Below are positions 43,366 through 57,119 of a stretch of 64,000 bases of DNA, one piece after another. Every line of letters begins with the position of its first letter. Position 1 is the stretch's first letter. The DNA comes from Anaerolineaceae bacterium (GTDB lineage: Bacteria; Chloroflexota; Anaerolineae; Anaerolineales; Anaerolineaceae), in assembly GCA_002702705.1 (NCBI GenBank), contig PABH01000063.1, positions 1-64,000 on the forward strand, given 5' to 3'. Below the pieces are notes generated by a model. That model was not told the origin of the DNA. It saw nothing but the letters and a program-made list of their open reading frames with translations, and did not search any database. The position numbers and the translations under genes were made by a program.

Positions 43366-44193
43366 TCAAGCTGAGTTTTTTTGTGGGGAAGATGATTTTT
43401 TCTGATTGTTTCCTGGTTTAAATATAAGTTGATCAAATTCTGAGAAAACATATTTTTTAATAAAGGTAACCGCCATGATTGATGCAAGGGCTGAGGATGA
43501 AAAAATCATAGCCATAATTACAAATTGATAAATTCCTGCATATATTGGATCACTACCGGAAAGGATCATGCCTGTCATAATGCCGGGTATCCAAACAATC
43601 CCAAGCGATCGTAGAGAATCAATGCGAGGAATTAAAGCTGCAGAAATTGCAGAACGAATATGAGGGCGGATTACAATATTAGGCGAAGCTCCCAAAGCCA
43701 AACCACTTTCAATTTCACCGGTATGATTGAGCACTTGTGATTTAAATCTTTCTAACGATAGTGCTGATGTGTTCATTGAATTGGCGATAATCATACTGCC
43801 AACAGGGATGATGGATTTAAGGTCCCATTCGATAACGCCTAATAATGTCATGGTTATAATCACCAACCCCGATCCGAAGGCGACAGCTTTAAATGTAATT
43901 GTTTTCGCGTGAGGGATTCCTTTTGCTCTTCTTCCAGCAATTGTTCCGGCTGCATACATCATGGCTGCTAGGATGGGTATTGCTAAAATTAATGGCCCTG
44001 TAAAGACAAATATCAAAACTAAACTTATAAGAACTATTTGAATTATTGATCGCAATAGCGCAATCAGACTGTCTTTTAGAATATCTATTTGTTTTGTTTT
44101 CGCAAAGGTTATCACTCCAAGAGATAAAATGGCTGCAATGGAAGCCTGAATAACACCAATGAGAATTTGATTGTTTGTTAGGTTTGTTAACAT
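43366..44193 (-). CDS. FetB-like ABC transporter permease (UPF0014 family)
   Basis: 275 residues with about seven hydrophobic helices and the family's GRRAKGIPHAKTI loop and PGIMTGMILSGSDP segment. FetB with its ATPase FetA exports iron or protects against metal/oxidative stress in Escherichia coli. The gene starts 3 nt after the ATPase stop, a two-gene operon. Substrate is by homology only. Confidence 0.85.
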   Translation of the reverse strand: MLTNLTNNQILIGVIQASIAAILSLGVITFAKTKQIDILKDSLIALLRSIIQIVLISLVLIFVFTGPLILAIPILAAMMYAAGTIAGRRAKGIPHAKTITFKAVAFGSGLVIITMTLLGVIEWDLKSIIPVGSMIIANSMNTSALSLERFKSQVLNHTGEIESGLALGASPNIVIRPHIRSAISAALIPRIDSLRSLGIVWIPGIMTGMILSGSDPIYAGIYQFVIMAMIFSSSALASIMAVTFIKKYVFSEFDQLIFKPGNNQKKSSSPQKNSA

Positions 44194-44196
44194 AAT

Positions 44197-44862
44197 TTAA
44201 ATTTCCAAATAAGAGTCTAACTTTCCTTGTTTCATAATCATACGGTGTGTCGCAAATCGTTGTGTTTGATCAATATTATGGGTAACAAACAAGCAGGTAA
44301 GCTTTTCTTCTTTGATGATTGTGGCCAATAAATCTTCAATCAGTATCTGTGCATCCGGATCCAGTGCCGCAGTTGGTTCATCTAGTAGTAGTAATTCCGG
44401 TTTATTTGCTAATGTACGGGCTAATGAAACTCTTTGTGCTTCCCCACCCGATAAAGTGGATACATCACGTTGTTCAAATCCTGATAAATCAACACGATCT
44501 AAAAGATTGGAGATTTCTTGATCTGTAATGGAACCTCCGCTATTCATGGGTCCAAATTGTATGTTTTCTTGAACGGTACCTGGAAATAAATAGGCTTGCT
44601 GCATCAACATACCTGCCTTTTTACGAAGGTTCATAGGCATTATTTCTTTTGTATTGAGGCCATTAAGCAATATGATTCCAGAGGTGGGTTCATCGAGCCG
44701 GTTGATTAATCTTAAAAAAGATGATTTACCAGCACCACTTGGTCCGGTTATGGCCACAATACTTTCTTTAGGTACTTTAATGTTAATATCATCAACGATG
44801 ATCTTATCGTTAAATTTCCGGGTAAGGTGAATGGTTTCTAATTCAGGTGATAATTCAGACAT
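44197..44862 (-). CDS. FetA-like ABC transporter ATPase
   Basis: 221 residues with Walker A GPSGAGKSS, signature LSGGEAQR, Walker B LLLLDEPTAALD and H-loop VTHN. Paired with the UPF0014 permease, so the call FetA-like rests on context; the sequence alone would also fit phosphate or amino-acid ATPases. Confidence 0.87.
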   Translation of the reverse strand: MSELSPELETIHLTRKFNDKIIVDDINIKVPKESIVAITGPSGAGKSSFLRLINRLDEPTSGIILLNGLNTKEIMPMNLRKKAGMLMQQAYLFPGTVQENIQFGPMNSGGSITDQEISNLLDRVDLSGFEQRDVSTLSGGEAQRVSLARTLANKPELLLLDEPTAALDPDAQILIEDLLATIIKEEKLTCLFVTHNIDQTQRFATHRMIMKQGKLDSYLEI

Positions 44863-44985
44863 AGATGTATTCTACTATGCTTGTCAATTATTTTGTCTTT
44901 TTTGTACCAGGAAGTAATCAAATAATTTCATTGAGAAAAAAATAGTTTAAATTGATAAAGAAATAAGGTCACTTTTATTATATAT

Positions 44986-45399
44986 TCAGATTTTAGGTGT
45001 CATTATTATCGCGTCTATTGGACAAACTTGGCAGCAGAACCCACATCCTATACATCGTTTTATATTTAATAAATAATTAAAATGGTTGGTGTTTTGATAT
45101 AAATTTTGTTCAATTGCATTCACAGGACAGGCATATAAACAAATATTACAAGATGTGCACTGAGTTTGATTCCAAGAGGGGATTTTCCATTCCTTTTTCA
45201 ATAATAAAGAACAAACCTCACCTTCACAATCGATAATGGCTTCGGATCGACAAACTTTTCCGCAAACACCACAAGATATACAACGTTCGGGATCAATAGT
45301 ATGAACTTGTTTATTATGGCCTGTTATCGCTTCGGCTGGGCATATATTTGCACATGCTGTACAACCATTACAATTAGTAGGCAATATTTGATAAGTCAT
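44986..45399 (-). CDS. Polyferredoxin with four [4Fe-4S] motifs
   Basis: 137 residues with four CxxCxxC motifs (CNGCTAC, CISCGVC, CTSCNIC, CIGCGFC), each followed by a more distant CP or CR, giving up to four [4Fe-4S] clusters. It overlaps the end of the aldehyde:ferredoxin oxidoreductase gene by 4 nt (ATGA), so it is likely the dedicated electron carrier of that enzyme. Confidence 0.9.
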   Translation of the reverse strand: MTYQILPTNCNGCTACANICPAEAITGHNKQVHTIDPERCISCGVCGKVCRSEAIIDCEGEVCSLLLKKEWKIPSWNQTQCTSCNICLYACPVNAIEQNLYQNTNHFNYLLNIKRCIGCGFCCQVCPIDAIIMTPKI

Positions 45400-47366
45400 T
45401 GGTTATCCTGAGATTCAACATAGATTGAGATAATTCGGTTGCTAATTTGATCTGTTGGTTGCCCCGTTTTTTCATTCCAACCTAACTCTTGAAAATAAGC
45501 TGGAACAATTTCATTTAAATTCACCTTGCGATTTTGATTAGCACCTTTTTTTTGTGGAGGAAGACCGATCGCTCTTGGCGTGATGCTATGAATTAGAGAT
45601 TCTGAGTGTTTCTGGTTAAAAACCTGTTTTAATTCGTGTATATTGTATCCGATTTGCATATAGTCTTCCGGTGTGTTTTGCCAACCCGTGGCGGCGTTTA
45701 ACCACTCGAAAATCGGGAATCGGTGAACACCAATAAATGCACCAAACAAACAAGCCCCGGCACCATTTAAAAGTGATATAAATTTGGAATTGGCTACAGC
45801 CGCCAAAACATTTTCTCTGGAAGATTGGTATTTTTTATTTTTATGATAAAACCTACTTATTTTGGGATAGGAATTTAATTTTTTCCATAAGGAAAACATT
45901 TCATAATATAGATTTGATCCTAAGGTATGGCGCCCTGGCGTGGCTTCTACTACTGCGTGGATCGCAAAACCAGGGTCATTTCGAGGATCATGCATAGCCA
46001 ATTCTTGTCCGCTGGCATGAACCGGATTTGACATTTTTGAATTACCTAATTTCTGAGCAGCAATTTTTGCTCCATCTGTCAAGAATGCGCCAAATTTTTC
46101 TCTATGGACCATCTGGTGTATTAATTCAGGTAATATTTGTGAATTACCCCAAGTTAGATTTAAACCCCCCGTCTCTTCTAATGAAAGAATACCTTTTTCA
46201 AAACACTCATAAGCATATGCAATGGAAGCTCCAGCTGAGATAGAATCCATGCCTGCTCGATTTAGGATATCATTAATTTCGTAAATAGAACTTATATCTT
46301 CATTTAATAAAAGACTGCCAAATGCTGTTACGGTTTCGTATTCAGGCTTGTGGGTTTCTCCGTCACGATTAGGAAATTTTGAAATACCCCCACAACCGAG
46401 AGGGCAGGAATAACAATGATATTTATTGATTTCAAGTTTTTGAAATCGATCCGGATTATATTTAATATTTTGTTTCGATCTAAAATCCCCGTGGTAGCCA
46501 TCCCAATTCTTTACTGGAGCGTCTCCTTGTTCCAATGAAGTTATATTCATTGAAACGGTTCCCCATTTTTTTAATAAGATTTTGTATAACATCCCGTCAA
46601 TTGCCATTTGAAACGGCAAAATACGCATGATCATTCCAAGAAATCCTGTCATAAAACCAGGCAAAAAAGGTGGTTGAAACTGTATATACCGATTAAATTG
46701 ATGGGAGAGTTTTTTCATTTTTTCCGGTGAATGAGCAGCAATTTTTTTATTGCCTGTTATCACAATTGCCTTTAGCTTTTTTGACCCCATTACAGCACCT
46801 AAACCGGAACGGGCAGCCATTCGTCCACGGTCGTTAACAATACCCGAGATTAGGGATAAGTTCTCTCCTGCTTGGCCGATTACAGCTACACTGGGTTGTT
46901 GTGGTTGATATTTTTTGATTAACGCGTTTTCGGTTTCAATCGCATCGATTCCCCAATATTCCTCAGCTGGAAGAATCATAACTTGATCGTTTTTGATATA
47001 AATATATACGGGGTGACTGCTGGTTCCTTTGATAAAAATCCCATCATATCCCGCTTGTTTTATCGCCGGGGCGAGATTTCCACCGCAATTTGCATCACCC
47101 CACGTGTTTGTTAAAGGTGATTTTGCTGCCACTATCCAACGTCCTGTTAAAAAACTACCTGTTCCGGTTAATAACCCGGAAACAAAAGCCAATATATTAT
47201 CCTCCCCTAATGGATCGGAGTTGGGTGGGATATGTTTATTTAAGATCACCGCAGCTAATCCCAATCCAGACAATACATTTTTATAAAGTTCTTCAGGTAT
47301 TTTTTCTTCGTAAGAGGTTTTATTTGATAAATCTACCCATAATATTTTTCCGGTGACAGCATGCAT
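45396..47366 (-). CDS. Aldehyde:ferredoxin oxidoreductase (tungsten/molybdopterin type)
   Basis: 656 residues of the AOR family: N-terminal ILWVDLSN, pterin-loop GDANCGGNLAPAIKQAGYDGIFIKG, a CYSCPLGCGG cluster region and DPRNDPGFAIH. These enzymes oxidise aldehydes to acids with a tungsten bis-pterin and one [4Fe-4S], reducing ferredoxin. The ferredoxin made here could feed the bifurcating hydrogenase of this window; that link is inference. Slightly longer than the archaeal enzymes (about 605 residues). Substrate cannot be assigned. Confidence 0.88.
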   Translation of the reverse strand: MHAVTGKILWVDLSNKTSYEEKIPEELYKNVLSGLGLAAVILNKHIPPNSDPLGEDNILAFVSGLLTGTGSFLTGRWIVAAKSPLTNTWGDANCGGNLAPAIKQAGYDGIFIKGTSSHPVYIYIKNDQVMILPAEEYWGIDAIETENALIKKYQPQQPSVAVIGQAGENLSLISGIVNDRGRMAARSGLGAVMGSKKLKAIVITGNKKIAAHSPEKMKKLSHQFNRYIQFQPPFLPGFMTGFLGMIMRILPFQMAIDGMLYKILLKKWGTVSMNITSLEQGDAPVKNWDGYHGDFRSKQNIKYNPDRFQKLEINKYHCYSCPLGCGGISKFPNRDGETHKPEYETVTAFGSLLLNEDISSIYEINDILNRAGMDSISAGASIAYAYECFEKGILSLEETGGLNLTWGNSQILPELIHQMVHREKFGAFLTDGAKIAAQKLGNSKMSNPVHASGQELAMHDPRNDPGFAIHAVVEATPGRHTLGSNLYYEMFSLWKKLNSYPKISRFYHKNKKYQSSRENVLAAVANSKFISLLNGAGACLFGAFIGVHRFPIFEWLNAATGWQNTPEDYMQIGYNIHELKQVFNQKHSESLIHSITPRAIGLPPQKKGANQNRKVNLNEIVPAYFQELGWNEKTGQPTDQISNRIISIYVESQDNQ

Positions 47367-47652: not shown

Positions 47653-50600
47653 ATGAATAAGCCTCTGATGCGAACCAAGATAAGTGTTCCGCGCCCAAGA
47701 AAAGATTTAATCCATCGCCAACGATTGCTTAAACAATTAAATGAAATCCTTGAAAACAAATTAATCATGGTTTCTGCTCCAGCGGGGTATGGAAAAACGA
47801 CCTTAATGATTGATTTCGCCAGCCGGGAAGAAATTCCTGTGTGCTGGTATTCGTTAGATGAAAATGATAAGGATATGATCCGGTTTGTTTCTCATCTAGT
47901 TGCTTCTATCAGTGTAAGATTTCCCCATTTTGGAGCTGACACATTATCTTTACTCAAATCTTTCAATGATCGAGCTTTTGATATTGACGTTCTCATTACA
48001 ACATTTGTTAATGAATTGTATGACAAGATCTTAGAACACTTTTTAATCGTTATTGATGATTTTCATTTAATTGAAGAAAATCCGCATATTGTCAGCTTTT
48101 TAAGCAGGTTGATAGAATATGTAGATGAAAATTGTCATTTTGTGGTTTTATCAAGAACATTATTAGGTTTGCCGAATTTACCATTATTAGTAGCTAGAAA
48201 CCAGGTTGCTGGTTTAAGTTTTGAAGAATTAGCTTTTAGAAAAAATGAAATTCGGTTATTGTTCCAAAATAATTATCAGATCAATTTGTCTAAGGAAGCG
48301 ATTGATACCCTATATGCCGAATCGGAAGGGTGGATCACTGGATTATTATTAACCGCTGCAAATGTAGATGGAAAAGAAACATTACAATACCGTACTCCCA
48401 GGGTAGTTGGTGTGGGTATTGATGAGTATTTGGGACAACAAATTCTTGAACCATTGTCTGAAGATATGCGGACTTTTCTTTTTCAAACATCATTACTGGA
48501 AGAATTTGATGCTGCTTTATGTAAAAAAGTTTTGGACCCAATTAATGATAAGGTTTTAAATTGGGATCGATTAATGGATGAAGCCCTTCAAAAAAATCTG
48601 TTTTTGATCGCGGTGCCGGATGCTGAAAATGATATTGTTTATTTAAGATTTCATCATTTATTTCGAGATTTTTTACAAAAAAAAATGATCGAAAGATCAA
48701 AATCTAAAGCAGATCAAATTCGATTAAATTTGGCGAACTATTATGCTGAAACAAAAGAGTGGCAGATCGCAATAAATATTCTTTTTTCCATTAATCAGAC
48801 GGAAAGAATTGCTCAATTATTGGAAACTGGGGGACCTGAACTGATATCTGATGGTAAATATGATTTGATTACAGAGTGGTTGTCTAAATTAACGGGAGAG
48901 ATTCGATATAAATATCCTGTTTTATTATCACTGCAAGGTATGATTTCATCGATAAAAAATGATGTTTTAGCAGGTATCAATTCTTTATCCGATGCGATTC
49001 AATTACTCCAAAATCAGCCTGACAAAAAAAGCCTATTGTTACAAACTTTATCCAGACGAGCAACAGCCTATCGTCTGATTGGGGATTTTTTTCATAGTGA
49101 AGAAGATATTAAGATCATACAGCAACTCACTACCCAATCACATGAGCATCATAAAGTTATCAGTAATGCGCTTCGTGAGAAAGCTTTATTAAACTATAAC
49201 AAAGGTAAGTTTAATGAAGCTCTACAAGATATTAAAGCTGCGGAGCAAATTTCCATTAATGTGGGGGATAATGCAAATCGCAATCAATTTGCAATTGACA
49301 TTGGGATGATTCACCGTGGGTTGGGCAATTATGATGAAGCAGAACGTTATTATATTTCAGCTTTAGAATACCTACAGAAATATGGTAATTTTTCAGCTTT
49401 AACAATTTTACATAATAATCTGGCGTTTTTATATCATAAATTAGGTAGGTACTCTCAAGCAGTTTTGCATTATGAAAAAACGATTGAATATGCAAAATTT
49501 ATAAAATTTACAAAATTTGAGGCTTATGGGATTGTTGGGATTGCTGATGTTTATTCCGATATACAAGCAATAGAGGAAGCAGAAGAAGCCTATCAAAAAG
49601 GATTAGCCTTCTTTAATATTATTCAAGACAGCCAATTGGATCTGTATATTCGAATTGCAATGGTTCGCTTATTTTTATATAACCAGAAAATAAAAGAAGC
49701 AAATATATTTTATAACGAATTATTTAAAAGTGAAGTAGAGACCCCGGTAATTAATGTTTTAAAAATGGAGCTGGCTTATTTTGATGGAAATTATCATTTA
49801 GCGAAAGATATTTTATCTGATTTATTAAGCAAAGAAAATCAAAAAATAGGGAAAGACGAAATCGCTCTTGTAAACTTTTATGAGTTGTTGTTGAATGTAA
49901 AGATGGGTTTGACTATTGAACCGTTGATAGATGATATTACCGCTATGATTTCCGACAAAAAGGAAAAAATGGCAATCTTATCGGCAGGAAAAAAACTATA
50001 TAACGAATTAAGTCTTTTAAAAACTGAAAATCCACTGGTTGAGAGAAAGTTAAAATCAATATTGGAACAAATAAAAAAATATGGGGAATCTGTTCCTGAG
50101 GTGAAACGAAGGATTCGACAACATGGTAATCACATCCCGGTGCCCCCAGCAAAAATTGAAATTTTTTCATTTGGGAATCCAAGAGTTATTAAAGGCGGCG
50201 AAGAAATTTCAAGTCAAGAGTGGCAGGCTAATATTGCAAAGGAGTTATTATTTTATATTCTTTTTCAAAAAAATGGTGTCACAAAAGAACAAATCTTTAA
50301 TGCCCTATGGCCAGATGTAAATGATGATTTATCATTACGGTTCAAAAACACGATTTACCGGTTACGACGAGTAATGGGGAAAGACGCCATTTTATTATTA
50401 AATAATCGTTATTTTTTCAATACTGAACTGGATTATAGTTATGATGTTGAATTATTTGATAGTTATTTAAATTCAGATCGTGTGGAACAATTAAAAAAAG
50501 CAATCGATATATATAAAGGGTTTTACCTGGAAGGGTTTGATAATATTTGGTTATTACCCGAACGAACTAGAACTCATTTTATGTATCGAAACGCTGTATT

Positions 50601-50850
50601 AAAATATGTAAATTGGTTGCTTGAAGAGAAAAAACAACTGCTTGATGTGATCGTTATTACGGAAGAGTTATTAAAATACGATCCTGAATTTGAAGAAGCC
50701 TATCGAGTTCTTATGAAGGTTTCTTATGACATGGGGGATATTAAAAAAGTAATGGGATATTACCGGTTATGTTCACAAGTCTTAAAAGAAAATTTAGATT
50801 TAGAACCTTCTATTAAGACCAAACAATTATTGGAAACATTAACTAAATAA
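47653..50850 (+). CDS. MalT-like STAND ATPase fused to SARP/BTAD DNA-binding activator
   Basis: 1065 residues. Residues about 15-340 form a MalT-type STAND ATPase (P-loop SAPAGYGKTT at 41-50, Walker B FLIVIDDFH), residues about 350-800 are helical TPR-like repeats, and residues about 833-1065 are an OmpR-type winged helix (KELLFYILFQKNGVTKEQIF, FKNTIYRLRRVMG) plus the BTAD helical domain. The order is reversed relative to classic SARPs, where the DNA-binding part comes first. ATG follows aaggaag. The adjacent unit at 50991 has SARP-like repeats in its promoter and is the probable target. Confidence 0.92.
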   Translation: MNKPLMRTKISVPRPRKDLIHRQRLLKQLNEILENKLIMVSAPAGYGKTTLMIDFASREEIPVCWYSLDENDKDMIRFVSHLVASISVRFPHFGADTLSLLKSFNDRAFDIDVLITTFVNELYDKILEHFLIVIDDFHLIEENPHIVSFLSRLIEYVDENCHFVVLSRTLLGLPNLPLLVARNQVAGLSFEELAFRKNEIRLLFQNNYQINLSKEAIDTLYAESEGWITGLLLTAANVDGKETLQYRTPRVVGVGIDEYLGQQILEPLSEDMRTFLFQTSLLEEFDAALCKKVLDPINDKVLNWDRLMDEALQKNLFLIAVPDAENDIVYLRFHHLFRDFLQKKMIERSKSKADQIRLNLANYYAETKEWQIAINILFSINQTERIAQLLETGGPELISDGKYDLITEWLSKLTGEIRYKYPVLLSLQGMISSIKNDVLAGINSLSDAIQLLQNQPDKKSLLLQTLSRRATAYRLIGDFFHSEEDIKIIQQLTTQSHEHHKVISNALREKALLNYNKGKFNEALQDIKAAEQISINVGDNANRNQFAIDIGMIHRGLGNYDEAERYYISALEYLQKYGNFSALTILHNNLAFLYHKLGRYSQAVLHYEKTIEYAKFIKFTKFEAYGIVGIADVYSDIQAIEEAEEAYQKGLAFFNIIQDSQLDLYIRIAMVRLFLYNQKIKEANIFYNELFKSEVETPVINVLKMELAYFDGNYHLAKDILSDLLSKENQKIGKDEIALVNFYELLLNVKMGLTIEPLIDDITAMISDKKEKMAILSAGKKLYNELSLLKTENPLVERKLKSILEQIKKYGESVPEVKRRIRQHGNHIPVPPAKIEIFSFGNPRVIKGGEEISSQEWQANIAKELLFYILFQKNGVTKEQIFNALWPDVNDDLSLRFKNTIYRLRRVMGKDAILLLNNRYFFNTELDYSYDVELFDSYLNSDRVEQLKKAIDIYKGFYLEGFDNIWLLPERTRTHFMYRNAVLKYVNWLLEEKKQLLDVIVITEELLKYDPEFEEAYRVLMKVSYDMGDIKKVMGYYRLCSQVLKENLDLEPSIKTKQLLETLTK

Positions 50851-50860
50851 TTTTTATACA

Positions 50861-50880
50861 ATTGTTAACGTATTGTTAAC
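50861..50880 (+). promoter_or_regulatory. Tandem attgttaac repeat, 11-bp period
   Basis: Two identical 9-bp copies (50861-50869 and 50872-50880) spaced one helical turn apart, upstream of the SARP-like promoter. Candidate upstream activator site. Confidence 0.4.
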
Positions 50881-50906
50881 ATAAACAAAAAATTTATCTC
50901 AACCTC

Positions 50907-50941
50907 TGATGCCTGTTTTGATGCCTGCGCCTCGGTATAGT
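50907..50941 (+). promoter_or_regulatory. SARP-type promoter: direct repeats 8 bp from a -10 box
   Basis: Two identical 9-bp direct repeats tgatgcctg (50907-50915 and 50919-50927, period 12 bp). The second ends exactly 8 bp before TATAGT (50936-50941). Known SARP operators have direct repeats near 11-bp period with the last copy 8 bp upstream of the -10. Transcription would start near 50948, about 43 nt before the peptide gene. Confidence 0.55.
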
Positions 50942-50990
50942 CTTTTTTATACGAAATTCCAAGTCAGATTATCAATTTCGGAGGAAAAAG

Positions 50991-51134
50991 ATGAATATTT
51001 TATCAAAACTCTACCAAAACTATATCGCTCAAGACCCCCAAGGCACAGTGCGAATCGCTCTGTTTACTTTAACAATCGTTTTATTTGTAATTGGTGCCGG
51101 CGCTCCTGAAAGTGGATCAGGGTTCAACGGATAA
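50991..51134 (+). CDS. 47-residue single-pass membrane peptide
   Basis: ATG at 50991 with a clear gaggaaaa ribosome site; encodes 47 residues. Residues 1-20 are polar/amphipathic (SKLYQNYIAQDPQG), residues about 22-36 are a hydrophobic helix (IALFTLTIVLFVIG), and the tail is small and polar (AGAPESGSGFNG). It is the first gene of a compact unit; DUF5317 starts 5 nt later. It could be a membrane regulatory peptide or an exported signal-peptide precursor. No family recognised. Confidence 0.75.
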   Translation: MNILSKLYQNYIAQDPQGTVRIALFTLTIVLFVIGAGAPESGSGFNG

Positions 51135-51139
51135 GTTGG

Positions 51140-51736
51140 ATGATTTTGACTTATGCGATCTTTGTTGGTTTTTTTGTTGGTATTTCTATTCATAAATTGT
51201 TTGGAAAGCCATACCAGCTACCAAAAATTAAATCCATTGAACTTGTCTTCATAGCCGTATTACCACAGATTGTTATTTTTCAATTGAACTTTACCAGAAC
51301 TTTTTTTTCAGATAGGTTTGCTTCCCTATCCTTAATAATCAGTCAATTGATCCTTGTTGTTTTTTGTTTCATAAATTTTAAACAGCCAGCTTTTTGGTTT
51401 TTGACTGCGGGATTAATTTTGAACCTGATTGTTATCGTAACCAATGGTGGATTTATGCCGATCAGCCCTAAAAATGTCAGTTGGTTAATTCCAAATATAA
51501 CGGATACAGCAGGTTTGATGGGTAAGCGATTGGGATTTGGAAAGGACATTGTTCTTTTGGAAAACCAAACAAAACTACTCTTGTTATCGGATTATTTTCG
51601 ATTTGATTTCTTAAATCAAAAATTTATGTACAGTATCGGCGATGTAATTTTAGCAATTGGTGCATTTTGGTATATGTTGGGACTAAAAACAGAATTATTA
51701 ACAATGCCGGGATTAATGGAGAAAAACAATGTTTAA
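51140..51736 (+). CDS. DUF5317 membrane protein
   Basis: 198 residues with about five hydrophobic helices and the conserved loop NGGFMPISPKNV (near 100), the hallmark of DUF5317, a family with no assigned function. Helix 1 follows the start directly, so it is an inner-membrane protein. It overlaps the next gene by 8 nt. Its position between a tiny membrane peptide and an NHLP-like protein suggests it handles or anchors one of them, but this is speculation. Confidence 0.82.
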   Translation: MILTYAIFVGFFVGISIHKLFGKPYQLPKIKSIELVFIAVLPQIVIFQLNFTRTFFSDRFASLSLIISQLILVVFCFINFKQPAFWFLTAGLILNLIVIVTNGGFMPISPKNVSWLIPNITDTAGLMGKRLGFGKDIVLLENQTKLLLLSDYFRFDFLNQKFMYSIGDVILAIGAFWYMLGLKTELLTMPGLMEKNNV

Positions 51737-52034
51737 TCGTTCAATCTCATCCTATGACGAAATGAAATCGGGACATGCAGCACAAAAAGATTATCAGGAC
51801 TCCTGTAAGATGTTGGCAGCAGCAGTAATAAATAAACATTTTAGAAAACAATTGCTGGATAACCCAGAAAAAGCACTGGAAACCGGCTTTGGTGGTCAAA
51901 GCTTTCAAATTGGGCTGGAGATGAAAGAAAAAATCGGAACAATTCGAGCAAATGATTTGTCTGATTTTGCATTTCAATTCACACAACAAATGGAACCATC
52001 TACGCTGATGGTTTCGTCTTACGCAGGAGATTAA
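51729..52034 (+). CDS. Small NHLP/Os1348-like protein, possible RiPP precursor
   Basis: 101 residues. The segment about 30-85 (LAAAVINKHFRKQLLDNPEKALETGF, shown in part) has the LxxNPxxAL pattern of nitrile-hydratase-leader-like (NHLP clan, Os1348-type) small proteins described from Chloroflexota. The tail (QQMEPSTLMVSSYAGD) lacks Cys but has Ser/Thr. No RiPP-modifying enzyme is in the window, so it may be a repurposed leader-like domain. It starts inside DUF5317 and ends 8 nt before the HD-GYP gene. Confidence 0.6.
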   Translation: MFNRSISSYDEMKSGHAAQKDYQDSCKMLAAAVINKHFRKQLLDNPEKALETGFGGQSFQIGLEMKEKIGTIRANDLSDFAFQFTQQMEPSTLMVSSYAGD

Positions 52035-52042
52035 TCTTTTTT

Positions 52043-53149
52043 ATGCAGTCGTATTCATTTTTACAATCCGCATTACTTCAAACCAATGCGCTTGATTCCT
52101 TAATTGTTCAGGAACCAAGGTATGGTTTATTGGATTGTAATTTCATACAATTGCAGCGATTAATCAATATTATATTGGATGTTTTTAATATTAAATATGG
52201 TCAATTATTTCAGTTAAAAGATAATGGAGAATATGTAATCCTTAATCCTGGACTTGGTTACGAAAATGATATCCTTGATTATGAACTTTGGAATCATTTT
52301 AATACGGTATCAGCTTCTTCATCCCCAAGAAAATTACCTTACCATGCGGTTCAAACTTTGTTTAGTCCGCCCTTTACTTCTGAGCCTTTGAGTTTCATAT
52401 CTTATCCCCTCCGAAATGAAAATGGCCCGCTGGGTATCTTTATCTTAGGCGGCACAAGCAATGGGGTTCCTTACGCTTTTCAGGGAATGAACGCCCGGGT
52501 CATAAAAAATATTATCAATATTATCAGCATGAGTTTAAATCGTATTAAGCAAGGTGCTGATTTGGTCGACAGTTCAGGTCAAACGTTAAATTACCTTATC
52601 TACAGCATTTTTGATCACGATGCTTATACCAGTAAACACAGCAATACAACTGCGATTAGAGCAGAAAAAATTGCAAAAATTATGGGTTGTACGGAAAGAG
52701 AAATTCAAATCTTAAAGTGGTCAGCCATTTTACATGATATTGGAAAAATGGTTGTACCGGTAAAAGTGCTAAATAAACCAAATCCGCTCAACCTTTCCGA
52801 ATGGAAGGTTATGCGATTACACCCAGAAATAGGCTCATTAATTATTGGATTAACCACCGGGTTAAGTGCAATTGCAGAAATTGTTTACACTCACCATGAA
52901 CATTATGACGGAAAAGGATATCCGCTTGGTTTGCAGGGGGAGCAAATTCCGCTTCCCAGTCGAATTTTATCCGTAGTGGATGCTTATGGGGCAATGACTG
53001 AAAACCGTTCTTATCAGTCGGCAAAATCCGTTTTACAAGCGCAGCAAGAGTTAATGAAATGCGCAGGCACCCATTTTGATCCAGCAGTTGTGGATAAATT
53101 CTTGAATATCTTAAATACTGGTAGATTAATTTCGGAGAATATTGTATAG
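52043..53149 (+). CDS. GAF-HD-GYP phosphohydrolase
   Basis: 368 residues. Residues about 10-185 form a GAF-like sensor; residues about 205-365 are an HD-GYP domain with HD at 231-232 (LHDIGKMVVP), HPEIG, THHEHYDGKGYP and DAYGAMT. HD-GYP proteins usually hydrolyse cyclic di-GMP to GMP. The canonical metal and GYP residues are present, so activity is likely. Last gene of the unit; a terminator follows 20 nt after the stop. Confidence 0.88.
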   Translation: MQSYSFLQSALLQTNALDSLIVQEPRYGLLDCNFIQLQRLINIILDVFNIKYGQLFQLKDNGEYVILNPGLGYENDILDYELWNHFNTVSASSSPRKLPYHAVQTLFSPPFTSEPLSFISYPLRNENGPLGIFILGGTSNGVPYAFQGMNARVIKNIINIISMSLNRIKQGADLVDSSGQTLNYLIYSIFDHDAYTSKHSNTTAIRAEKIAKIMGCTEREIQILKWSAILHDIGKMVVPVKVLNKPNPLNLSEWKVMRLHPEIGSLIIGLTTGLSAIAEIVYTHHEHYDGKGYPLGLQGEQIPLPSRILSVVDAYGAMTENRSYQSAKSVLQAQQELMKCAGTHFDPAVVDKFLNILNTGRLISENIV

Positions 53150-53170
53150 GGAGGTACAGTATTCTATATA

Positions 53171-53229
53171 TGAGGACATTCTCTCAGTCAATGTTAAAAT
53201 TGGCCAGGTGGGTGTCCTCATTTTTTTTA
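53171..53229 (+). terminator. Terminator of the peptide/DUF5317/HD-GYP unit
   Basis: tgaggaca (53171-53178) pairs with tgtcctca (53213-53220), followed by a run of eight T. The loop is long (34 nt) but the stem is perfect and its position, just after the HD-GYP stop, is right. Confidence 0.75.
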
Positions 53230-53339: not shown

Positions 53340-54455
53340 ATGAACGAGTCCTTAAGCAAACCTTTAAAAATTGCTATTGATTTTGGTTTCCATAGCATAA
53401 AAGCAGCATCATTTAATGAATCTGAATGTATAACTTTTTCATTACCTTCGGTTGTTGGAGTGGGAGATACATCGATAGGGCTACTAAAAACAGGAATCTC
53501 CAGAGCCAAAAAAGATGTACCTTACACAGTAGTATATAAGGGCCAATCATATCTGGTTGGTCCCTTTGTTTCTAAATTTTGTCGCCCTGTTGAGCGTGTA
53601 GATTTTGATCGTTTGATAGATTGTATTGAATTGCGTGTGATGATTTATGCAGCACTATCAGGGTTGATCGGAAAACTGGCTACCAGTGATGCCGAAAATT
53701 CGAAGAATAATTCTTATAATGTAACTCTTGTTATTGCTTTACCAGTTCAAGTTTTACAAAGTGAAACAGCAAAAAAAACTGTGCGAGATATTGCAAATTG
53801 GCTTGAGGGTTATCATGAATTTTCAGTTGATAAACTTGGATGGGATATTAATGTTATTCAGATTATACCGATGGCACAACCTTTAGGGCGTTATTTTGAA
53901 TGGGGATTAAATAATGATGGAAGTTGGGGGTTATCTAAATTTGATTTCAACTCTTCAGTAGGTATCCTTGATCAAGGATTTAACACAATTGATCTTCTTC
54001 ACGTACAAGAAGGCCAAATTATTCGTCGATTCACCGGTGGGGAGACTCTAGGACAACGTAGAGCCGCACATTTAATTCAGAAAGAAATATTTACTCTTAC
54101 TTCTCGTAAGTTAACATTACATGAAGCAGATGAAATATTCATCAAACATTTACTTAATTCACAAGATACTGATCATTATCAGGGAATAGCTGATATTAGT
54201 GCAGTTTGCAAAAAAGTATTTGATATGTCAATAGGTGAATTACGTTCCTTTTTAGAACAGTATTGGGATAATGGAAAACAGTTTGATGTTATTTTGTTAT
54301 CAGGCGGTGGTTCTATCGTTTTACAGTATTATATTGCTTCTATGTATCGTCATTTGGAAATACCAGCCCAACCAGTCTTCTCAAATGCAATTGGGTTTTC
54401 GAAATTTGCTCAAAGAAAGAACCTTTTTAAACGTGTTTCCAATTGGGTAGCATAA
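53340..54455 (+). CDS. ParM/actin-like ATPase
   Basis: 371 residues of actin-fold ATPase: phosphate-1 loop IAIDFGFHSIKAA (about 11-23), phosphate-2 GILDQGFNTIDLLHV (near 210) and adenosine motif LLSGGGSIVLQ (near 325). Best match is the ParM/Alp class, which polymerises to push plasmid copies apart. The neighbours (ParR-like protein, recombinase, replication initiator) support a plasmid-segregation role. An ATG with cggag ribosome site starts the gene. Confidence 0.85.
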   Translation: MNESLSKPLKIAIDFGFHSIKAASFNESECITFSLPSVVGVGDTSIGLLKTGISRAKKDVPYTVVYKGQSYLVGPFVSKFCRPVERVDFDRLIDCIELRVMIYAALSGLIGKLATSDAENSKNNSYNVTLVIALPVQVLQSETAKKTVRDIANWLEGYHEFSVDKLGWDINVIQIIPMAQPLGRYFEWGLNNDGSWGLSKFDFNSSVGILDQGFNTIDLLHVQEGQIIRRFTGGETLGQRRAAHLIQKEIFTLTSRKLTLHEADEIFIKHLLNSQDTDHYQGIADISAVCKKVFDMSIGELRSFLEQYWDNGKQFDVILLSGGGSIVLQYYIASMYRHLEIPAQPVFSNAIGFSKFAQRKNLFKRVSNWVA

Positions 54456-54485
54456 TTAAGTTGTTAAAGGTTTTGGGTAGCATAA
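54443..54485 (+). repeat. 13-bp direct repeat pair between parM-like and parR-like genes
   Basis: ttgggtagcataa occurs at 54443-54455 (overlapping the ParM stop) and again at 54473-54485, offset exactly 30 bp and ending right before the next ATG. Could be an operator/centromere half-site or a slippage duplication. Confidence 0.5.
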
Positions 54486-54719
54486 ATGGCGAGGTTAAAA
54501 CGAAAAAACAAGGTAATTGTCCCATTAAAGCTTTGGTTAATTCCAGGCCGCGATGATGACTTGATAGAATTCTTTGCGTTAGTTCCTCCAGGAAAAAAAG
54601 CATGGGCAGTTATGCGTTCTCTTAGAACAGGAATTCGATCTGAAATTGTGCACGAGAAAGATGAAATCGATAATTTTGAGACTAAGCTTGATAGTTTGGG
54701 TGAATATTGGGTGTTCTGA
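54486..54719 (+). CDS. Small ParR-like protein (putative centromere-binding partner)
   Basis: 77 residues with a basic start (MARLKRKNKVI), then VPLKLWLIPGRDDDLIEFFALVPPGKK shown in part, which matches the pattern of ParR/RHH-type proteins: short strand, helix DDDLIEFF, turn, helix AWAVMRSLRTG. It follows the ParM-like gene directly, the normal parM-parR order. The call rests on pattern and position and needs a profile search. Confidence 0.5.
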   Translation: MARLKRKNKVIVPLKLWLIPGRDDDLIEFFALVPPGKKAWAVMRSLRTGIRSEIVHEKDEIDNFETKLDSLGEYWVF

Positions 54720-54734
54720 TTAAGAGAGGAGCTT

Positions 54735-55658
54735 ATGGAAAACTTTTCATATATCGGGGATTTTAAAAGGTTTTTGATTGATTCAGATAAGTCGATAAAG
54801 ACAATAAGTGGTTATGTAACTGATGTTTTATTTTTTATCGATTGGTATGTTGAGAAATCTCAAGAGGCTTTTAAGCCAGAACTTGTTTTACCAGTTGATA
54901 TTAGATTGTATAGAGATTTTTTACATGAAACTCTATCATTAGCACCTAGCTCAATCAAACGAAAACTTTCATCCCTCAACTCATTTTTTTTATGGGCATT
55001 GGAAGCAAATATTGTTTTAAATAATCCAGTGAAGGGAATTAAATCAATATCACAATCAGTTACCGCTCCGAAGTGGCTAAGCAAAAATGAAATCTGTAAA
55101 TTTCTCAGGATAATAGACCGAGAATTATATCTTTCAAAGAATAAATATCCGGTAAGATGGTTATCACGTCATCGGGATTGTTTAATTGCACTAACTTTTT
55201 TGTTTACAGGAATCAGGGTTAACGAAGGTGTGGCATTGACGTTAAACGATGTTCAAATTAGTGATCGCAGTGGTTATTTAGTTATACGGAGTGGAAAAGG
55301 AAAAAAACACCGAAAGATTCCTCTTAATAAATCGGCACGAAATGCTATTGATTCGTGGTTATCTATACGACCTGAATCAGATTTGCCTAATCTTTGGTTG
55401 TCGTCAGATAATAATTGGCAAAAACCATTAACAAGTCGGACAATTCAAAGATCAATTCAACGACTTGGGCTTGAAGCAGGGATAAACTTACACCCGCATG
55501 TTCTTAGGCATACATATGCTAAACAATTAATCGATTTGGGAATTGGGATTGAGAAAGTTGCCGTACTGTTAGGCCATTCAAATATAAATACAACAAGCAT
55601 ATATATAACTCCCTCTCTACAAGATCTTCAAGAAGCAGTAGATAAAATAGAATTATAG
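54735..55658 (+). CDS. Tyrosine recombinase/integrase (XerC/D-like)
   Basis: 307 residues with an N-terminal SAM-like core-binding domain (about 1-95) and a catalytic domain with all active residues visible: Arg in TGIRVNEG, Lys in RSGKGKKHR, HxxR in HVLRHTYAKQL, His in LGHSNINTT and the nucleophile Tyr in SIYIT. It could resolve dimers or integrate the element. Ribosome site agagga before the ATG. The Xer-like length suggests site-specific recombination at a dif-like or att site. Confidence 0.92.
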   Translation: MENFSYIGDFKRFLIDSDKSIKTISGYVTDVLFFIDWYVEKSQEAFKPELVLPVDIRLYRDFLHETLSLAPSSIKRKLSSLNSFFLWALEANIVLNNPVKGIKSISQSVTAPKWLSKNEICKFLRIIDRELYLSKNKYPVRWLSRHRDCLIALTFLFTGIRVNEGVALTLNDVQISDRSGYLVIRSGKGKKHRKIPLNKSARNAIDSWLSIRPESDLPNLWLSSDNNWQKPLTSRTIQRSIQRLGLEAGINLHPHVLRHTYAKQLIDLGIGIEKVAVLLGHSNINTTSIYITPSLQDLQEAVDKIEL

Positions 55659-55671
55659 AAAGGACATGGAA

Positions 55672-56118
55672 ATGTTAGAAAAACCAAATGCCGCTGAATG
55701 CGACTCAGCGGCAGTAGTTCAACTTGTCAACGATGAATTTCCTAAGTTCAAGAACAATTATAACATTGATTCCATTTCATTAGTTAAGAAAATCTGCATA
55801 GCAAAATGCTTAAGCGGATTGTCTATCAGTGAAGATAAAATGGTTTCTATTGTTCCTGTTAATGACTTTCCGATCAATAACACCAATAGTTCTGAGTTAT
55901 TGATTGAATCTTATCTGTTTTTGCATGTTTATTTTCAATGCCGTGATTCTTTTTGGATAGATCACCCAACGGGACTATGGCTGTGTGAGTATGTATGGTT
56001 CGCTTCTCTTGCTGTACCAATGGCTGAAGAATTTTTTCACATAAGAAAGGGGATGGTAGGTAAGGACTGCGGAAAAACCGTTTTAGAAATAGAATTGGAG
56101 TCAGAATCATGCAGTTAA
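55672..56118 (+). CDS. Hypothetical protein of the plasmid-like module
   Basis: 148 residues, no family recognised. A mixed polar N-terminal half and an aromatic stretch (FLHVYFQCRDSFWIDHPTGLWL) with several Cys. ATG at 55672 sits 8 nt after aaagg and is preferred over ATG at 55666. A perfect 8-bp hairpin lies 18 nt inside the gene. It overlaps the initiator gene by 10 nt, so the two are coupled; a replication or copy-control partner is possible. Confidence 0.65.
   Translation: MLEKPNAAECDSAAVVQLVNDEFPKFKNNYNIDSISLVKKICIAKCLSGLSISEDKMVSIVPVNDFPINNTNSSELLIESYLFLHVYFQCRDSFWIDHPTGLWLCEYVWFASLAVPMAEEFFHIRKGMVGKDCGKTVLEIELESESCS
55690..55712 (+). other. Perfect hairpin at the start of the hypothetical gene
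   Basis: gccgctga (55690-55697), loop atgcgac, tcagcggc (55705-55712). GC-rich stem in AT-rich DNA, positioned to affect translation initiation or to serve as a recombination/replication structure. Confidence 0.5.
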
Positions 56119-57119
56119 CCGTGGAACGCATCCGAACATTAAAAGGAGCGCCGCTATCGATCTTGATGGCGCTGGTATTGAGTAAGCAGCCGGTCACCAG
56201 TGATTGGCTGCAGGCTGTCACGGGGTACAGTGACAAATCGGTCACCTCCGGATTAAAAGCCCTACAAGAATTTGGATACATCACCCGCAACGGGCGGTAT
56301 GCCTGGCAGCTGGCCGGAGAGATTAACCAGTTACCTTTGATGACAAACCTGGCAGAAGAACCGGATAATCAACCCGGAGAAATTCCGGGTCCCGAATTAG
56401 ATGGGGATGTGGTGAATATCGATTCTTGGGATGATTGCGGCTCGCCAGATCAAAATTCAATGGAAAACCGGTTGTCAGATGACCAAAGTATGCCTGACCC
56501 GGAAAATTTCCGGGTGCGACCCGGAGAAATTCCGAGTCCAGATGCTCTAGCTAGTCTAGAATCATTAACTAGTTTTAAAAAACCTAGAAAAGAAAAGAAT
56601 CTAGCTAGAGGCGAGCCTGACCCGGAAATATTCCGTATCCTGGACGAAAACGGCATCCGTGAACCAGCCCGATCCCAAATTGCAAACCAGCCGGAGGTTT
56701 CCGCGCGCCTGGTGGCCTATCACTGCAAAACGGCACCGAATACAAGCATGGCGATTTGGCGCATCCAACACAATTGGCGGGTGCCCAAACATTGGCAGAT
56801 GCCCGTGGTACTGCCGGCTGTGGTTGACGAACCGGACGTCCCGTCCGAAATCTATGATCCGCTGCCGGAAGACCTGATTCAACGCTGGGACCAGACCCTG
56901 GCCCTGCTAGAAGGGCAGCTTTCCCGCGCAGATTTCCACACCTGGGTAAAAGCTATGAAGCCGCTCACCCTACGTAAAGGTGTCTTGGTAATTCGCGTTG
57001 CCAATAGTTTTGCGATGGAGTGGCTCGAAGCAAACATAAAGAAACAACTTGAAGATGGGTTGGGGATAAAATTTCTGATTGAAGTTAGTGATGAACGACC
57101 AAGAAAACCTAATCCCTGA
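56109..57119 (+). CDS. Replication-initiator-like protein: winged helix plus DnaA N-terminal-like domain
   Basis: 336 residues. Residues about 1-75 form a winged helix (VTSDWLQAVTGYSDKSVTSGLKAL). Residues about 80-175 are a low-complexity linker coded by repeat-rich DNA. Residues about 255-336 match the DnaA N-terminal (DnaB-contact) domain: LPEDLIQRWDQTLALLEGQLSRADFHTWV in part, then VLVIRVANSFAMEWL. There is no AAA+ domain. The layout resembles RepA_N plasmid initiators. GC and codon use are clearly higher in GC than in the flanking genes, a sign of separate origin. Confidence 0.75.
   Translation: MQLTVERIRTLKGAPLSILMALVLSKQPVTSDWLQAVTGYSDKSVTSGLKALQEFGYITRNGRYAWQLAGEINQLPLMTNLAEEPDNQPGEIPGPELDGDVVNIDSWDDCGSPDQNSMENRLSDDQSMPDPENFRVRPGEIPSPDALASLESLTSFKKPRKEKNLARGEPDPEIFRILDENGIREPARSQIANQPEVSARLVAYHCKTAPNTSMAIWRIQHNWRVPKHWQMPVVLPAVVDEPDVPSEIYDPLPEDLIQRWDQTLALLEGQLSRADFHTWVKAMKPLTLRKGVLVIRVANSFAMEWLEANIKKQLEDGLGIKFLIEVSDERPRKPNP
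56373..56637 (+). repeat. Iteron-like palindromic repeats inside the initiator gene
   Basis: Four copies related to cccggaaaatttccggg: 56373-56389, 56498-56514, 56520-56536 and 56621-56637. Copies 2 and 3 start 22 bp apart (two helical turns). Between copies 3 and 4 lies an AT-rich stretch (56545-56610) bounded by inverted ctctagctag/ctagctagag and holding seven CTAG tetranucleotides. This is the arrangement of iterons plus an unwinding element; proposed oriV. Confidence 0.55.

Follow-up and report, generated by a model that had tools for sequence, protein, structure and literature searches.

What function could tie together five consecutive genes, between positions 47,653 and 53,229 of a 64,000-nucleotide stretch of an Anaerolineaceae genome (GCA_002702705.1, contig PABH01000063.1; hereafter the window), whose predicted products are a STAND-type SARP regulator, a 47-residue membrane peptide, a DUF5317 membrane protein, a small protein resembling the Os1348 branch of the NHLP clan and an HD-GYP protein of cyclic di-GMP (c-di-GMP) turnover? 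A preliminary description, which placed all five open reading frames (ORFs) on the forward strand exactly where we find them, had proposed a peptide circuit tied to the HD-GYP protein, and this remains the best reading. Our sequence comparisons show that a SARP-type operator signature precedes a conserved operon, that the peptide, with its invariant Gly-Ala-Pro (GAP) junction, is real and that it is paired with DUF5317. On balance, we consider it probable that the locus is an autoregulated peptide-signaling circuit that resembles RRNPP systems in its working without being one of them, and in which c-di-GMP turnover is one of several outputs. The combination is conserved and, as first supposed, has to our knowledge no earlier description.

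Of 298 genomes sampled from the class Anaerolineae, 83 contain DUF5317; a further 80 loci came from scanning named genomes, among them those of Bellilinea caldifistulae, Ornatilinea apprima, Anaerolinea thermolimosa and Leptolinea sp. The added loci were picked by similarity to the DUF5317 of the window, with gene order no criterion of selection, and the frequencies given here therefore lean toward the window's type. Among the 160 distinct DUF5317 loci, the order SARP, peptide, DUF5317, Os1348-like protein, HD-GYP is complete in 54, and SARP, peptide and small protein occur together in 111, so that DUF5317 does recur with NHLP-like and HD-GYP genes, as the initial proposal required. The five-part association far exceeds chance. 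The peptide profile was searched through whole genomes regardless of position (E of 1e-4 or better), which answers the worry that it had been built from loci chosen for their DUF5317. Across the 298 genomes, peptide and DUF5317 are found together in 73 and are both absent from 214; DUF5317 stands alone in 10 and the peptide alone in 1 (Fisher P of 3e-57, kinship of the genomes ignored). The sole peptide-only genome (G245) is 83% complete and its match lies at a contig end. By these genomic counts the two are near-obligate partners. The peptide also occurs at 14 sites apart from DUF5317. A SARP gene immediately precedes it at 10 of the 14, and the small protein comes after it at 7 of the 14; contig ends or weak matches account for several of the remaining sites. 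No mobile or phage-borne version was found in plasmids or viral contigs.

In most DUF5317 neighborhoods the SARP gene is followed by a short ORF encoding a basic N terminus, one transmembrane (TM) segment, the GAP sequence and a Gly-rich tail. Family members are mostly 26 to 60 aa long, G37, A38 and P39 are invariant in the family alignment, and the window peptide is matched by the profile in its own genome at 5.6e-13. The initial proposal had been made to depend on codon-level conservation of the small ORF, and this is present: the median ratio of nonsynonymous to synonymous substitution rates (dN/dS) is 0.15 and the maximum 0.47 (110 usable pairs), and nucleotide differences fall mostly in third positions (1198/687/2485 at codon positions 1/2/3). 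By these substitution patterns, the peptide is under purifying selection. The mean net charge of its N termini is +2.3, and its tails are non-positive in 91% of peptides; an N-in/C-out orientation is therefore predicted, in which the tail of about 10 residues probably faces outward.

The tail, with a median length of 10 aa counted from the Ala of GAP, behaves differently between genomes than within them. There are 127 distinct tails among 148 peptides, and between genomes at 45 to 55% DUF5317 identity the tail has changed more than the TM segment (identities of 0.24 versus 0.43). Tandem copies at the same locus have identical tails in 19 of 26 pairs, with 54 nucleotide differences in 624, although their N termini differ. 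The copies at locus L129, identical at 6/18 positions of the N terminus, 10/18 of the TM segment and 11/11 of the tail, carry the most weight, because many other tandem pairs are young duplicates. Ornatilinea apprima (L161) has four tandem peptide genes, all with the tail GAPFCVGGVGG, and in loci of the Pelolinea type (L129, L145, L155) DUF5317 precedes a tandem array in which small-protein and peptide genes alternate, the SARP gene not being adjacent. Candidate tails in the cultured strains O. apprima P3M-1, B. caldifistulae GOMI-1 and A. thermolimosa IMO-1, which would begin at the Ala of GAP or close to it, include APFCVGGVGG, APEAGGGIINSIINFPGW and APEDTGGFYH. Tails constrained within a cell and divergent between species suggest the pattern of pheromone precursors, unlike that of a purely structural TM subunit.

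This pattern bears on what we regard as the strongest alternative, although an unlikely one, namely that the peptide is an unreleased membrane microprotein, a constitutive subunit of a DUF5317 complex that senses the envelope or redox state and feeds the HD-GYP, kinase or receiver protein, with the SARP setting only its level. Such a subunit would account for the near-perfect co-occurrence with DUF5317, for an invariant GAP at the membrane exit, for tails of just 5 to 8 aa in some peptides and for DUF5317 proteins that are themselves fused to a transporter of the major facilitator superfamily (MFS) in other classes. It fails, however, to predict tails that vary between genomes yet are identical among diverged tandem copies, arrays of three to four precursors (L129, L161), or the several genomes in which peptide and DUF5317 fall on separate contigs.

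The preliminary description had the SARP precede the unit, as it does, but overlooked it as a member; operator evidence makes it the likely direct regulator. The protein has Pfam matches to BTAD (2.8e-11), TPR_12 (6.7e-14) and further tetratricopeptide repeats (TPRs), and its residues 5-430 match the NCBIfam model MalT at 4e-62, which is below the model cut-off. A winged helix-turn-helix (wHTH)-like stretch with an NTIYRLRR helix was read from the sequence and alignment, Trans_reg_C being absent from the Pfam matches. SARP operators are described as direct repeats that overlap the −35 region, classically in 11-bp units (PMC10972967), and a direct-repeat operator near −35 is predicted here as well. 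The SARP gene lies upstream of the peptide in most loci, 140 bp from it in the window. In the interval from SARP stop to peptide start, an 8-mer recurs without mismatch at a distance of 12 bp in 55% and of 11 bp in 17% of 124 loci, as against 0.1% and 0.4%, respectively, in shuffles. Of the distinct loci in which a SARP gene lies upstream, 74 of 116 have a repeat of at least 9/10 at 11 or 12 bp, compared with 1.7 expected from shuffles, and in the largest group of loci TANNNT follows 17 to 20 nt past the start of the second repeat. The half-site varies by lineage (GNAGCCT, GCATCCT, GTGAGT, GTAAGC); over the last 300 residues scanned, SARP positions 896 and 899 of the recognition helix are the most informative on half-site class, to which shared ancestry contributes. 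Loci without an adjacent SARP gene (L052, L132, L162, L164) retain the operator as well. In the window's own genome the locus holds the only perfect operator copy, and the idea of a regulon beyond the peptide operon was set aside for want of a second one. This single copy, together with the covariation of operator and helix, indicates that the SARP most likely controls the peptide/DUF5317 operon specifically.

The same genome has twelve other STAND paralogs, only one of which (contig C9, L248) gives a full-length SARP match, at 25%. No member of the peptide family follows the three paralogs whose downstream flank is about 1 kb or longer, the flanks of the others being too short, and a general habit of pairing STAND proteins with small peptides was discarded on those three. 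The transcription unit has its own promoter and terminator, as had been claimed, with the direct repeat and TATAGT upstream and a hairpin followed by U8 downstream (Table 1). A generic promoter and terminator scan was uninformative and missed the terminator because of its loop limit of 8. From peptide to HD-GYP gene, successive genes are separated by a 5-nt gap, an 8-nt overlap and an 8-nt gap. Repeats similar to the second, 11-bp repeat of the window, ATTGTTAACGT/ATTGTTAACAT, are present in the close relatives L120, L121 and L123.

DUF5317 of the window matches PF17248 with 92.7 bits (gathering score 25), and alignments show N79, G91, N95, N102, G104, M106, P107, D151, S165, G167, D168 and G174 to be invariant. 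Its AlphaFold2 (AF2) model (predicted local distance difference test, pLDDT, 93.5) contains four helices, a segment of about 60 residues with small strands and a fifth helix. From the positive-inside rule we infer that the segment between helices 4 and 5 would face outward, near the membrane exit of the peptide's GAP. Neither Foldseek nor sequence searches of solved structures gave a PDB match. Because the spacing D151...S165xGD168xxxxxG174 resembles D...F(N/S)x(A/G)DxxxxxG of signal peptidase II (LspA), homology to LspA was pursued, with little to support it: PF01252 had no match at E up to 1, the only hit being DUF5317, profile comparison with hhalign gave probabilities of 3% and 0.5%, and LspA was not among the fold matches listed. 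Fusions of DUF5317 to an MFS transporter (MFS_3), encoded downstream of HD-GYP, occur in other Chloroflexota classes (L260, L263, L265, L266; three Pfam-confirmed), an arrangement that suggests a link to export, and DUF5317 of L271 has a weak small-protein-like C terminus. The domain also occurs in the control genomes Thermotoga maritima and Thermus composti, and it is unmentioned in the literature searched. There may be a link between DUF5317 and the Thermotoga peptide gene TM0504.

The HD-GYP protein retains the motifs HDIGK and HHEHYDGKGYP and is a predicted c-di-GMP phosphodiesterase. The GAF domain assigned to it earlier was undetected in the window copy, whereas orthologs carry GAF or PAS domains (GAF at 1.6e-10 in L162 and 3.4e-13 in L106). 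HD-GYP would be only one of several outputs, a point that the preliminary description overlooked: in other members of the class, the last gene encodes a histidine kinase or receiver protein instead. A second form, with the order peptide, HD-GYP, DUF5317 and usually no small protein, is found in some class members and in other Chloroflexota classes. In the latter the peptide ends differ (e.g., AAGADLKWH, AGGASLKGF), HD-GYP has a MASE9-like sensor and DUF5317 may be MFS-fused. Loci with HD-GYP before DUF5317 also encode, upstream of HD-GYP and of the peptide if present, a protein of about 215 to 275 aa without a Pfam match and with the motif KQIVRDIESLL (L102:4820-5464, L064, L056, L275:4253-4900).

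These tightly coupled HD-GYP, kinase or receiver genes argue against a reading in which the TM peptide is toxic or resembles a bacteriocin, DUF5317 provides immunity or export and the SARP switches the peptide on. Small hydrophobic peptides in tandem copies with variable tails would suit that explanation, as would a dedicated membrane partner and the DUF5317-MFS_3 fusions. With strong purifying selection on the peptide and PADLOC matches only to generic TPR or HD models, we think it quite improbable. The same generic matches led us to drop a defense system.

The 101-aa protein had been described as leader-like, and we find little to recommend it as the precursor of a ribosomally synthesized and post-translationally modified peptide (RiPP), its C terminus being the product. 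The NHLP-clan similarity is seen among homologs, 42 of 46 matching NF038399, the Os1348 NHLP-clan model, at E of 1e-3 or better (best 3.3e-10), and the extreme C terminus is variable; the window protein scores 22.7 bits, below the curated cut-off of 40. Conservation extends through the C-terminal IRAxSLADFAxQ helix, and no gene cluster for a maturase or ATP-binding cassette (ABC) peptidase-exporter was seen recurring in about 88 neighborhoods, not every cluster of which was annotated. A RiPP precursor is therefore very unlikely. The protein, whose AF2 model is helical (pLDDT 76.8) with no PDB match to its fold, appears to behave as an accessory gene.

We propose that the peptide inserts N-in/C-out and that a cut near GAP would free a tail such as APESGSGFNG. 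DUF5317, whose invariant polar residues lie mostly in the region predicted to face outward, would perform or assist the cut or the export, possibly via D151 and D168. The simplest sensor of the tail, once taken up, would be the TPR domain of the STAND-SARP, and the SARP would then activate the operon via the direct repeat, producing positive feedback. The output arm would be HD-GYP, or the histidine kinase or receiver found in its place, with c-di-GMP lowered when the circuit is on, and the Os1348-like protein may be a small partner of peptide and DUF5317. More tentatively, the locus might represent a new class of peptide communication, widespread in Anaerolineae and present in other Chloroflexota classes as a variant in which DUF5317 is often MFS-fused. 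DUF5317 would then be a membrane peptidase or exporter not yet described, releasing the tail of the GAP peptide, and sensing of this tail by the STAND-SARP would govern c-di-GMP and two-component outputs.

The closest known systems are those of the RRNPP family (Rap/Phr, PlcR/PapR, Rgg/SHP), which are recognized by a propeptide of 10 to 100 aa, export by Sec or PptAB with maturation by peptidases, a receptor of 250 to 500 aa with TPRs, and adjacent genes (PMC10075063). The present peptide, at 47 aa, is likewise a short precursor with a basic and then hydrophobic N terminus and a short C-terminal tail; its basic N terminus and TM segment would fit Sec export, its gene lies beside that of a TPR-bearing, cytoplasmic regulator, and the adjacency is conserved. 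Repeated pheromone copies also occur in RRNPP systems (PMC11343458). In contrast to these, the candidate receptor is a STAND-SARP of 1065 aa, the host belongs to the Chloroflexota rather than the Bacillota, and the locus has an invariant GAP, a near-obligate DUF5317, frequent Os1348-like partners and a c-di-GMP output. Large SARPs such as AfsR (PMC10936776, PMC10972967) share the wHTH-BTAD, nucleoside triphosphatase (NTPase) and TPR domains and a direct-repeat operator near −35, but here the NTPase and TPR domains precede a C-terminal wHTH-BTAD, the spacing is 12 bp in most lineages rather than the classical 11 bp, and the target is the peptide/DUF5317 operon, not an antibiotic cluster. NHLP RiPP precursors (PMC2887384) are distantly similar to the small protein, which differs in its lack of an observed maturation or export cluster and in its conservation, accessory-like, over nearly its whole length. 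LspA (Peptidase_A8) and DUF5317 are both small polytopic membrane proteins with similar motif spacing; DUF5317 has no LspA Pfam match and a very weak profile match, no fold match was found, and the peptide lacks a lipobox cysteine.

Several points weigh against the signaling circuit. It is drawn throughout from sequence analysis; operon co-inheritance inflates co-occurrence and covariation, and the tests ignore phylogeny; and the tandem pairs that share a tail are mostly recent duplications, alike nearly everywhere. Some DUF5317 loci are without the SARP, the small protein or both, and in several genomes peptide and DUF5317 are on different contigs. The SARP exceeds the size range of RRNPP receptors, the class loci showed no recurring gene for a dedicated peptide importer or exporter, and fold searches with DUF5317 yielded neither a protease nor a receptor fold. 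The resemblance to LspA is at the level of motifs, and we keep it as a weak hypothesis without claiming membership.

Chloroflexota are abundant in sludge, sediments and hot springs, and we know of no peptide-signaling system in the phylum; a search of the literature on Anaerolineae, SARP and quorum sensing found none. The cassette offers candidate signals in cultured strains, e.g., APFCVGGVGG, encoded four times in O. apprima, as well as a candidate regulator with a predicted operator. It also provides a first functional hypothesis for DUF5317, a domain present beyond the phylum in T. maritima and Thermus. If the circuit is as proposed, peptide sensing, STAND-SARP regulators and c-di-GMP would be joined in one testable unit.

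Table 1. Features of the locus, in window coordinates
Feature	Position	Strand	Remarks
STAND (MalT-like NTPase)-TPR-SARP regulator, 1065 aa	47653..50850	+	wHTH and BTAD C-terminal; recognition-helix residues R896, N899
11-bp direct repeat ATTGTTAACGT/ATTGTTAACAT	50861..50882	+	between SARP stop and main operator; read from sequence
Proposed SARP operator, TGATGCCT GTTT TGATGCCT	50907..50926	+	direct repeat, 12-bp spacing
Predicted −10 box TATAGT	50936..50941	+	17 nt from start of second repeat; from sequence
Shine-Dalgarno GGAGG of peptide gene	50980-50984	+	from sequence
Peptide precursor, 47 aa	50991..51134	+	basic N terminus, one TM segment, GAP, tail APESGSGFNG
DUF5317 membrane protein (PF17248)	51140..51736	+	Pfam 2.9e-26
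Small helical Os1348-like (NHLP-clan) protein, 101 aa	51729..52034	+	NF038399 matches among homologs
HD-GYP protein, predicted c-di-GMP phosphodiesterase, GAF-like N terminus	52043..53149	+	HD_5 3.6e-34
Intrinsic terminator closing the unit	about 53170..53221	+	hairpin then U8; RNA fold −25.6 kcal/mol, z −6.6

Downstream of the unit, positions 53340-57119 encode an actin-like protein (ALP), a tyrosine recombinase and a protein with a DnaA_N domain, genes that suggest a plasmid-like or integrated element. Upstream, on the minus strand (43366-47366), lie genes for a ferredoxin-like protein, an aldehyde ferredoxin oxidoreductase and an ABC transporter pair of permease and ATPase that on visual inspection resembles FetAB.

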